Positions 12,593 through 16,336 of a stretch of 41,520 nt of DNA are shown piece by piece. The notes beneath the pieces were generated by a model. That model ran no database searches. It saw nothing but the letters and a program-made list of their open reading frames with translations, and was not told the DNA's origin. The DNA is from Planctomycetia bacterium (GTDB taxonomy: Bacteria; Planctomycetota; Planctomycetia; Gemmatales; Gemmataceae). The stretch covers positions 1 to 41,520 of the forward strand of contig SYLG01000036.1 of NCBI GenBank assembly GCA_005808665.1. The letters are read 5' to 3'. The position numbers and the translations under genes were made by a program. How positions within the stretch are numbered: the first letter of the stretch is position 1; each line of letters begins with the position of its first letter.

Positions 12593-14200
12593 ATGTTTTT
12601 GCGCAATCTCTTGTTTTTGTCCATGGTTACCATCGGTACCCTTACGCTTGGTTTTAACCTGATACCGCCCCGGCATGGATTGCCGCCAACCCCAAGTAAT
12701 CCGGAATCGTACCAGGTGGATCAATTTCAGGGTACTGTGAAGCAGGTGGATGCCTCCTTTCAGAAATCCTGGTCAGCTGATAACATTCAAGCGGCCCTCC
12801 CTGCGGATGAATTGGCCCTAGCCAGAAGGCTATCGCTTGGTTTGATGGGAACAATTCCCTCCCTCGAAGAGATCCGGCAATTGGAATCCCAACCTGCCGG
12901 GGAAAGGGTGAATTGGTGGATCGACCATATTCTTCAGGATCGACGGTATTCCGACTACCTGGCCGAAAGAATGGCACGGGCGTTTGTGGGAACGGAGGAC
13001 GGGCCCTTTATTTTTTTCAGACGGCGCAAGTTTGTGGCATGGCTCTCGGAACAGATCACCAAAGGTGTCCCCTATGACCAAATGGTGCGGGAGGTCATCG
13101 CCACGGAGGGCCTTTGGACTGAAAAACCTGCCACCAATTTTATCACGGTGACCGTGCAAAACGACAAACAGAATCAACCGGATCCCGTCCGCCTTGCCGG
13201 GCGGGTGACCCGTGCTTTTTTGGGTGTCAGGCTGGATTGTGCCCAATGTCATGATCACCCTTTTGCGCCATGGAAGCAGTCGGATTTTGAGGGGTTTTCC
13301 GCCTTTTTTGGTCAAACCCATATTGGATTTCAAGGGGTGTATGATGGACCGGGTGAATATGTTGTTGAAGATCGAAAAAAAGAGGTCAAACGAACCGTAG
13401 CACCCATGGTAGCCTTCTCCAGGGATTTGTTACCCAAGGATGGGACCCTTCGGGAGCAAATGGCCTCCTGGGTGACCCACAAGGACAATCCCTATTTTGC
13501 CCGGGCCGCAGTCAATCGGGTCTGGGCACTTCTATGCGGCCAACCCTTGGTAACCCCGGTCGATAACCTTGAAACCGAAGCCCCTATTGCTCCCGCCCTG
13601 AAGATTTTGGCCGACGATTTTTCCAGTCATAACTTTGATTTGTCACGGTTGGTGCGCATCATTGCCAGCACCGAAACTTACCAGAAACAGAGCCTTTCCC
13701 TGCTTGATTCCTCTGGCCTTGCAGAAAAAGCGTGGGCCCAATTTCCATTGACCCGCCTAAGGCCCGAACAGGTCGCTGGCAGCATCCTCCAGGCATCGTC
13801 GGTCGCAACGGTAAACGCCGATTCCCACCTTGTTACCCGGCTTATCCGATTGGGAGCTCAAAATGATTTTATCAAACGCTATGGCGATAGCGGCGAGGAT
13901 GAGTTCGACAGTCGTGGGGGCACCATTCCCCAACGGTTGGTGATGATGAACGGGAAATTGGTCACCGAAAGGACTGGGGGGGGAGCATTCACCGCAACCA
14001 CCCGAATCCAATGGTTGGCCTCCGAGGATCCCAAGGCGGTGGAATTGGTGTTTCTTGCGGTATTAACACGCCGTCCCACCCCGGAGGAATCCGCCTTTTT
14101 TGAGGAAAAATTGCAAAACCCTGAACTGTCCCGAGGCCAGGAGATACAGGATCTTTTTTGGACCCTTGTGAACACTACGGAGTTCTCATGGAACCACTAG
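12593..14200 (+). CDS. DUF1549/DUF1553 (PSCyt2-PSD1) exported protein
   Basis: 535 residues. It begins with a hydrophobic export signal (MFLRNLLFLSMVTIGTLTLGF). Residues about 70-260 match DUF1549 (PSCyt2): LARRLSLGLMGTIPSLEEI and TRAFLGVRLDCAQCHDHPFAPW, whose CAQCH is a CxxCH-type motif. Residues about 290-520 match DUF1553 (PSD1): YFARAAVNRVWALLCG, LVTPVDNLE, the RPEQVAGSILQASS region and RRPTPEESAFF. The N-terminal cytochrome (PSCyt1) module of longer relatives is absent. This family is strongly expanded in planctomycetes; its biochemical role is not established. Its stop overlaps the ATG of the following DUF1501 gene, a pairing repeated throughout planctomycete genomes. Confidence 0.93.
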   Translation: MFLRNLLFLSMVTIGTLTLGFNLIPPRHGLPPTPSNPESYQVDQFQGTVKQVDASFQKSWSADNIQAALPADELALARRLSLGLMGTIPSLEEIRQLESQPAGERVNWWIDHILQDRRYSDYLAERMARAFVGTEDGPFIFFRRRKFVAWLSEQITKGVPYDQMVREVIATEGLWTEKPATNFITVTVQNDKQNQPDPVRLAGRVTRAFLGVRLDCAQCHDHPFAPWKQSDFEGFSAFFGQTHIGFQGVYDGPGEYVVEDRKKEVKRTVAPMVAFSRDLLPKDGTLREQMASWVTHKDNPYFARAAVNRVWALLCGQPLVTPVDNLETEAPIAPALKILADDFSSHNFDLSRLVRIIASTETYQKQSLSLLDSSGLAEKAWAQFPLTRLRPEQVAGSILQASSVATVNADSHLVTRLIRLGAQNDFIKRYGDSGEDEFDSRGGTIPQRLVMMNGKLVTERTGGGAFTATTRIQWLASEDPKAVELVFLAVLTRRPTPEESAFFEEKLQNPELSRGQEIQDLFWTLVNTTEFSWNH

Positions 14201-15477
14201 GACGGCGGCATTTTTTCAGAACATCGGCTTCCCTTGCAGGAGCAAGCTGGTTGACCCCAGTGGGCCAATGGCTTGCCTGTGCCGCCGAGGGGATTGCACC
14301 GGGCGCCCTTCCTCCAAAAACATCGTTTGGGGGCACAGCCAGTTCGGTAATTGTGTTATGGATGCAGGGTGGCCCTAGCCAACTGGAGACTTTTGATCCT
14401 CATGAAGGATCCAGGATTGCCGGGGGAACGACCAAAATTCAAACGGCAGTTAAAGGCCTCTACCTTGCCTCCGGGTTGGAGCAATTGGCTGAGGAAATGG
14501 GTTCGGTATCCCTAATCCGTTCCATGATGAGCAAGGAGGGGGACCATGAACGGGGGACCTACAATATCAAAACCGGTTTTCGGCCCGATCCCACCGTATT
14601 TCATCCCTCTTTGGGTGCAGTGGTTTGCCATGAATTGCCCAATGGCGGGACAGAAATACCCCGGCATGTGAGTATATTATCCTCGCAATGGCCTGCCAGG
14701 GGAGGATATTTAGGCGACAAATGGGATGCATTTTTGATGGATGATCCGGCAGGACCTGTCCCGGATACCAAATCCTATTTAACAAAAGAACGGGAAAAAA
14801 AACGAATGGAAGGCCTCCAATTCGTGGAACAGTCCTTTGCAAAAGGTCGAGCCAAAAGGGTTGAGGAAACACTTCACCGGGAAACCATTCGGGGGGCCCT
14901 CAAATTGATGACCTCCGAGCAACTCAAAGCGTTTGATGTTTCCCTTGAACCCCAATCCATCCGCGATTCCTATGGCGATTCCGCCTTTGGGAGAGGTTGT
15001 CTGGCGGCACGAAGGCTTGTTGAGGCAGGGGTTCGGTGTGTTGAAGTAAACCTTGGGGGTTGGGACACTCACGCCAACAACCATCAGTTTTGTGCCGCAA
15101 ATAATAAAATCCTGGATCCTGCTTTCAGTGCCCTTTTGCGCGACCTCCGCCAACGCAATATGCTCGGAAGTACTTTGGTGATCTGTATGGGGGAGTTTGG
15201 CCGCACACCCTCTATCAATCCCACCGGGGGACGCGACCATTGGCCTGGTGGATTCAGTATCGCCCTGGCAGGCGGTGGCATTCAAGGGGGCAGGGTCATC
15301 GGCGAAACCGACCCTGAGGGCAAGGAGGAACCAAAAAAACAGGTAAAAGTAGCCGACTTCCATTCCACTGTTTTCGAAGCTTTGGGTATTGACCACAAAA
15401 AAGTCAACCAAACCCCGATTGGTAGAACCGTTAAATTTAGCGAGGGAGATCCCGTGCGGGCATTACTCGATGCCTAG
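14188..15477 (+). CDS. DUF1501 protein, Tat-exported, sulfatase/phosphatase-like
   Basis: 429 residues from the ATG at 14188, which overlaps the stop of the upstream DUF1549/1553 gene; an earlier in-frame TTG lies deep inside that gene. The start GRRHFFRTSASLAGASWL is a twin-arginine signal. DUF1501 landmarks follow: VIVLWMQGGPSQLETFDPH, RSMMSKEGDHERGTYNIKTG, GGWDTHANNH, MGEFGRTPSIN, GGRDHWPGGFSIALAGGG. The family is related to alkaline phosphatase/sulfatase folds, but its substrate is unknown. It probably acts outside the cytoplasmic membrane with its upstream partner. Its stop lies 11 bases from the stop of the convergent TGA-containing thioredoxin gene. Confidence 0.94.
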   Translation: MEPLGRRHFFRTSASLAGASWLTPVGQWLACAAEGIAPGALPPKTSFGGTASSVIVLWMQGGPSQLETFDPHEGSRIAGGTTKIQTAVKGLYLASGLEQLAEEMGSVSLIRSMMSKEGDHERGTYNIKTGFRPDPTVFHPSLGAVVCHELPNGGTEIPRHVSILSSQWPARGGYLGDKWDAFLMDDPAGPVPDTKSYLTKEREKKRMEGLQFVEQSFAKGRAKRVEETLHRETIRGALKLMTSEQLKAFDVSLEPQSIRDSYGDSAFGRGCLAARRLVEAGVRCVEVNLGGWDTHANNHQFCAANNKILDPAFSALLRDLRQRNMLGSTLVICMGEFGRTPSINPTGGRDHWPGGFSIALAGGGIQGGRVIGETDPEGKEEPKKQVKVADFHSTVFEALGIDHKKVNQTPIGRTVKFSEGDPVRALLDA

Positions 15478-15488
15478 CCAAAGGAGTC

Positions 15489-16046
15489 CTATTTTTCCGA
15501 AACCAGGCGACGAATCAGGGATTCAACGGCATTGGCATCTTCCTCCTCGGGGGGAAACTTTTTCGAAACCTTGTTGGTGCGGTTGAAAACAAACTGCGCC
15601 GGGTAGCCGTTGACCCCGAATTTTTTCATCCAGAGTTCATCAGGTTCATCCAGCCAAATATGGATCATGTCCGAGGGGTCGAGCCTTGCCAGGAACGATT
15701 CTGCCTTTTTCTTGGCCTTTACCAGTCCTTCCTCGTTGTCGATGGGCGTGAGCAGGTGGACGCTAATGGCAATGAATCCTTGTTTGCCGAGTTCCTTTTG
15801 CAACTGAACCAGGTGCGGGAACCCTTTTTTGCAAGGCAGTCAGTCGTGTCGCCACAAGTCCACCAAAACAACTTTTCCGGTTTGGGCCCGGACGAGCTTG
15901 GCCAGTTTGCCATATTTAAGATCTCTTAACAGGCTTGCCTGGGAAGTGGGTGGCAACTGTGGGGACTGGTTCCCCATTAAAGAAGGAATCATCAAACCCG
16001 TCGTGGCAAATGCAGGCAGGGTGGCTAAAAAGCGTCGACGGATCAT
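15489..16046 (-). CDS. TlpA-like exported thioredoxin, candidate selenoprotein (in-frame TGA at first redox Cys)
   Basis: One frame of 186 codons with a single internal TGA (15842-15840), codon 69. The ATG at 16046 follows GGGAGAAAG. MIRRRFLATLPAFATTGLMI is a Tat-like signal. Then comes the thioredoxin beta-strand KVVLVDLWRHD, the TGA, and LPCKKGFPHL. In TlpA/ResA-type thioredoxins this block reads W-x-x-x-C-x-x-C (for example WATWCGPC); here the TGA occupies precisely the first Cys and the second Cys (C72) is kept. The fold continues unbroken: VQLQKELGKQGFIAIS, a helix, IHIWLDEP, the cis-Pro strand GVNGYPAQFVF, to a normal stop. The coding pattern on both sides is equally good, with no frameshift. 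I infer Sec insertion giving UxxC. Alternatives are a recent Cys-to-TGA mutation (one base from TGC/TGT), a sequencing error, or a UGA-truncated 68-residue product. The gene is convergent with the DUF1501 gene and divergent from an MFS gene; it is alone in its transcript. No selA, selB, selC or selD is visible in the window. Confidence 0.72.
15798..15834 (-). promoter_or_regulatory. Candidate bacterial SECIS stem-loop
   Basis: Counting from the T of the internal TGA as 1, nucleotides 9-14 (TTGCAA) pair perfectly with 40-45 (TTGCAA). Inside, nucleotides 18-22 (AGGGT, with one bulged G) can pair with 29-32 (ACCT) around a 6-nt apical loop (TCCCGC). The total length and the distance of the apical loop from the TGA (23-28 nt) are in the range of bacterial SECIS elements, which lie in the coding region right after UGA. 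The lower stem is AT-containing and the upper one short, so stability must be computed. The codon context UGA-C is also a weak stop context. Confidence 0.4.
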
Positions 16047-16336
16047 GGCATCTTTCTCCCATTTACTTCTCCTGCTTATGCTAATCGGCTATCCCTTGCA
16101 AGGACAGGGGAAACACAACCCTTGGGTATTCATAAACTGATCCAATGGGATCTGATTGCTTCCTTTTCAGGCCACCATGTGCCAACCGATGGATGGTTTC
16201 CTTTGAATTTCAAATTCCTGGTTTGGGGAAACCATGTTTTCCCTAAGGGCGGTGCCAAAGGGAAAAACGATTGCTTATTCTTGTGCGAACCCAAAAATCG
16301 CAATGTCCAATCTCCGATTGAAATGGGCCGGACCCC

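Follow-up and report, generated by a model that had tools for sequence, protein, structure and literature searches.

The window analyzed here, a 41,520-nucleotide stretch of contig SYLG01000036.1 from a Planctomycetia bacterium of the family Gemmataceae (assembly GCA_005808665.1), carries on its minus strand a complete candidate selenoprotein gene (15489–16046). Translation from 16046 to 15489 with TGA read as selenocysteine (Sec, U) yields a frame of 185 codons that begins with ATG, ends with TAG, and contains exactly one internal stop, a TGA at 15840–15842 in the context W-R-H-D-U-L-P-C. The frame is therefore intact, as the preliminary description of this DNA had proposed, and the ribosome site claimed there can be read directly as a Shine-Dalgarno-like GGGAG at 16056–16060, 9 nt 5′ of the ATG. 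The recoded TGA would place selenocysteine at residue 69, the first position of a UxxC active site whose putative resolving residue, Cys72, is encoded by the TGC at 15831–15833. A signal region with a twin arginine (MIRRRFLATLP...) spans 15957–16046. Mechanical ORF calling recovers the C-terminal piece alone (15489–15803, 104 aa); as had been anticipated, an ordinary gene finder would therefore miss or split the gene. The gene stands alone, flanked by DUF1501 and MFS genes on the opposite strand. Positions 12593–15477 of the plus strand carry a DUF1549/DUF1553 gene and, after it, a DUF1501 gene, converging on the selenoprotein gene.

The joined protein scores above the Pfam cut-offs for Redoxin (residues 46–173, 34.9 bits against a cut-off of 26.6), Thioredoxin_8, and AhpC-TSA. 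Its AlphaFold model has a mean pLDDT of 86, with the low confidence in the leader that is expected of such a segment, and the nearest solved folds are those of ResA, DsbE, and CcmG (ResA, E 5.8e-9), which bears out the thioredoxin fold suggested around the TGA. In the profile alignment, the TGA residue sits on the first cysteine of the ResA/DsbE CxxC motif; Trp65, residue 69, Cys72, and Pro149 are invariant across the homologue alignment. The protein thus combines the features of TlpA/ResA-like Redoxin proteins: a thioredoxin fold, UxxC at the start of a helix, and a conserved proline loop. No NCBIfam model (ResA, TlpA, DsbE, or any selenoprotein model) exceeds its cut-off for this protein, the scores falling far below for ResA (25.4 of 170), TlpA (32.6 of 230), and DsbE (20.8 of 123).

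Many Redoxin-family proteins are peroxidases, and the protein might instead be a selenoprotein of peroxidase-like character (a thiol peroxidase or an AhpC/GPX-type enzyme) or some other selenol enzyme, not a disulfide reductase. Its matches to AhpC-TSA and Redoxin besides the thioredoxin models fit this alternative, as does the presence of GPX structures in the fold comparison, where they rank lower. We consider it unlikely, if worth keeping in mind, because UxxC at the helix start together with the invariant Pro149 is typical of disulfide reductases and the best fold and profile matches are ResA, DsbE, and CcmG.

A homologue with exactly one TGA is found in 32 of 99 related genomes, distributed over 20 genera and two families of one order, a recurrence that chance does not explain. 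In the translated members, the TGA occupies the same column, within W-x3-U-x2-C, and the other homologues carry TGC or TGT there; the column recommended earlier for inspection is thus TGA or Cys in relatives, under an extraction pattern that admitted only these codons. In a phylum-wide search, close Sec-form members came only from this order, the TGA-bearing matches elsewhere being weak, more distant, and mostly in longer frames. A scan of genome contigs returned mostly ordinary ResA/TlpA proteins.

The source genome (4.48 Mb in 186 contigs, rated 100% complete) contains all four components of the selenocysteine machinery that the preliminary description had named as a check. The tRNA-Sec lies at C155:67074–67167 (70.4 bits, cut-off 47), and ARAGORN assigns it the anticodon TCA (UCA). 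SelA (C22:30499–31860, 532.9 bits) adjoins SelB (C22:32723–33808, 335.3 bits), and SelD is encoded at C155:15072–16007 (353.7 bits). The SelD gene is itself a candidate selenoprotein gene (L052), with one in-frame TGA in the sequence AGUAGK, at the place where SelD proteins carry either cysteine or selenocysteine. Among the 32 one-TGA genomes, SelA scores above its cut-off in 27; of the five without such a match, two (G002 and G040) carry a strong tRNA-Sec. In G040 (C138:11283–14593), some 2.5 kb separate this tRNA-Sec from a weak SelA-like match, and no SelA exceeds the cut-off. In the remaining three (G018, G057, and G059), no SelA or tRNA-Sec match exceeds its cut-off, but SelA is found in a congener of each, which makes missing contigs the likely cause. 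This probably holds even for G018, a U-bearing genome of 95% completeness.

An alignment of the Sec forms reveals a putative SECIS element, absent from the preliminary description, at 15789–15824 on the minus strand, consisting of an outer helix, an apical stem, and a GGUUC loop (15806–15810) located 29 nt after the UGA codon. It was found by alignment, since Rfam gave no credible match at the locus even at an E value of 10. Among the homologues, the alignment is gapless over the 63 nt from the TGA, and a stem-loop of the form GCAUCU-GGUNN-AGAUGC recurs at a constant distance downstream of the TGA in each of the 31 Sec-form sequences examined, with positions 26–31 pairing with 37–42 when counted from the start of the TGA. 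All six apical pairs form in 27 of these sequences and five of six in the other four; the loop begins with two Gs in 31/31. Covariation accompanies this conservation: base pair 26/42 has switched from G-C to C-G in 4 of 24 Sec-form sequences, and both sides have changed at three pairs of the outer helix. Across the Sec forms, 82.7% of cells are paired, compared with 76.6% in shuffled alignments (none of 500 reaching the observed value), a test that is supporting rather than decisive because shuffles ignore relatedness. Slid versions of the alignment give 29–44%, and 15 Cys forms give 57.9%, with no excess over their shuffles.

Because the hairpin overlaps a conserved stretch of protein, the behavior of third codon positions matters here. 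Positions +29, +32, +38, and +41 show little or no variation among Sec forms and vary freely among Cys forms. Between the window gene and its counterpart in the nearest congener, L023, dS is 0.04 in the 18 SECIS codons after the TGA, versus 0.58 beyond them. Folding energies of single sequences separate Sec from Cys forms weakly (mean z approximately −1.0 versus −0.4), and the window element taken alone is no more stable than its synonymous resamplings. A SECIS covariance model run over the source genome matched the window gene only, the model being biased toward the sequence of this protein. The published bSECIS model (PMC13188914) specifies a loop of 3–9 nt whose first two positions contain G, a stem of 4–16 bp, a distance of 16–37 nt from the UGA, and an MFE of −7.5 or below. 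With its GGUUC loop 29 nt after the UGA and an MFE of −12.9 (54 nt), the window element conforms to this description, with one mismatch in the stem. That mismatch, a 1×1 C-U in the apical stem, is common to the window gene and its two congeners, and probably arose from one ancestral change in these three sequences. L086, a separate relative, is mismatched at this position too, with U-C.

Coding constraint also continues past the TGA. In the comparison of the window gene with L023, dN/dS is 0.20 overall and 0.22 downstream of the TGA; against a third congener, synonymous sites are near or at saturation and dN is low. Values against congeners lie at approximately 0.1–0.2. The gene is therefore not decaying, which answers the concern raised at the outset that it might be a pseudogene. 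A nonsense mutation of the CxxC codon in a decaying gene, or a sequencing error, would require a single substitution from the TGC or TGT found in relatives, yet the TGA is common to three species of the genus and to many other genera and is followed by both a conserved SECIS element and codons under purifying selection, making this explanation highly improbable. Scarcely more credible is that TGA specifies another amino acid through a Trp or Gly code change or by unspecific read-through: the frame would be open under any TGA-reading code, but TGA terminates 6 of the 21 long window ORFs as well as the same gene in two congeners, so that it still serves as an ordinary stop and the code is not reassigned; the aligned homologues have Cys at the column (their extraction being limited to TGA or Cys codons), and SelA, SelB, SelD, tRNA-Sec, and a SECIS element are present.

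The Sec machinery, the TGA/Cys column, the SECIS element, and the dN/dS values together give good support to the earlier suggestion of a Sec-containing thioredoxin-like protein. On this sequence evidence, we are highly confident that the product of the window gene is an exported thiol-disulfide oxidoreductase of the TlpA/ResA (Redoxin) type, with selenocysteine as its attacking residue. The sequence supports decoding of UGA codon 69 by the tRNA-Sec (UCA) after its charging by SelA with selenophosphate from SelD, with SelB bringing in this tRNA and recognizing the stem-loop with the GGU loop 29 nt downstream of the UGA. The most likely chemistry, judged from the sequence and the model, would begin with attack by the U69 selenolate on a disulfide or other oxidized substrate; Cys72 would then resolve the intermediate, after which the resulting U-C bond would be reduced again by a DsbD-type donor in the membrane. 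The source genome encodes one protein of the DsbD transmembrane family.

The Tat-like signal noted earlier stands for the window genus, in which the RRxFL motif is kept in 3/3 members; it does not extend to other genera, where leaders are mostly of the ordinary Sec-type or lipoprotein-like and mostly without the twin-arginine motif. The window protein may follow the Tat route, by which it would leave the cytoplasm already folded.

A quick protein tree, built with the active-site column masked, requires eight changes between Sec and Cys forms, at least two of which are forced by well-supported branches. The direction and number of these exchanges are provisional because the deep branches are weak. 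It is possible, and we suggest it tentatively, that the Sec forms are a selenoprotein subfamily in their own right, belonging to one planctomycete order and marked by repeated exchange of Sec and Cys, in which an RNA hairpin dictates protein sequence by fixing the codons of P-H-L-V-[QE]-M. If this were so, the hairpin would account for the Met found where Cys forms mostly have Leu. The same tentative scenario has the window genus turning a stem pair into a mismatch by change on both sides, losing the old gene neighborhood, and gaining a Tat leader. Closely related Sec and Cys forms occur together in this one order, and some of its genomes have them as tandem pairs; such a set offers a testbed for the timing and causes of Cys-to-Sec replacement in an exported bacterial redox enzyme, and for the constraint that an RNA hairpin within a coding sequence places on the protein.

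The E. coli fdhF SECIS is a small hairpin within the coding sequence downstream of the UGA, with GGU in its loop. The window element is alike in these respects, but its loop lies further downstream, it is without the fdhF-type bulged U, and in the window genus its stem carries the 1×1 mismatch. E. coli formate dehydrogenases N and O are Tat-exported selenoproteins; they resemble the window protein in joining selenocysteine with a twin-arginine leader and are unrelated to it in fold and chemistry. ResA, DsbE (CcmG), and TlpA are alike in fold, active-site position, and export (predicted here from the leader), whereas the window protein has Sec in place of the first Cys and scores far under their NCBIfam cut-offs.

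UxxC redoxin and TlpA-like selenoproteins have already been catalogued (PMC13188914, PMC9312934). One of these surveys lists a Redoxin family selenoprotein (PF08534, UxxC; HEU0032618.1) and a thiol-disulfide isomerase-like selenoprotein (cd02966, UxxC), the listing of these families making no mention of planctomycetes (PMC13188914). The window protein has the Pfam family, UxxC motif, and thioredoxin fold in common with them and, compared by description only, may belong inside either entry. Planctomycetes, among them Gemmata obscuriglobus, are reported to have Sec machinery (PMC4807772); our search of open-licence papers found none on thioredoxin-like selenoproteins of this planctomycete group. 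The kind of selenoprotein is known; its planctomycete branch is well supported and previously unmodelled, with no NCBIfam model. Planctomycete selenoproteomes are probably undercounted, because standard annotation misses or splits such genes.

Within the window genus, the Sec form has no conserved operon partner. Several other genera have the gene order metallophosphatase, Methyltransf_16, Sec-form gene, and flavin-reductase-like gene; in some of these genera, FAD-linked oxidase genes similar to those for glycolate oxidase subunits come next. Such neighborhoods, with metallophosphatase, Methyltransf_16, flavin reductase, and FAD-linked oxidases, are seen at L083, L091, and L067, the last of which also includes a molybdopterin-binding oxidoreductase. 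Tandem redoxin gene pairs occur at L077, L059, and L058 and among matches in G005, G015, G022, and G054, several of them consisting of a Sec form beside a TGA-less form. A second, different selenoprotein candidate is present at L084 and L085 (G018:C134 and G044:C125). It has a TlpA-like domain with a C-U-I-N-C motif fused to NHL repeats, and it matches Pfam AhpC-TSA and NHL with no NCBIfam model above cut-off; a hairpin with a GGUC loop follows its TGA.
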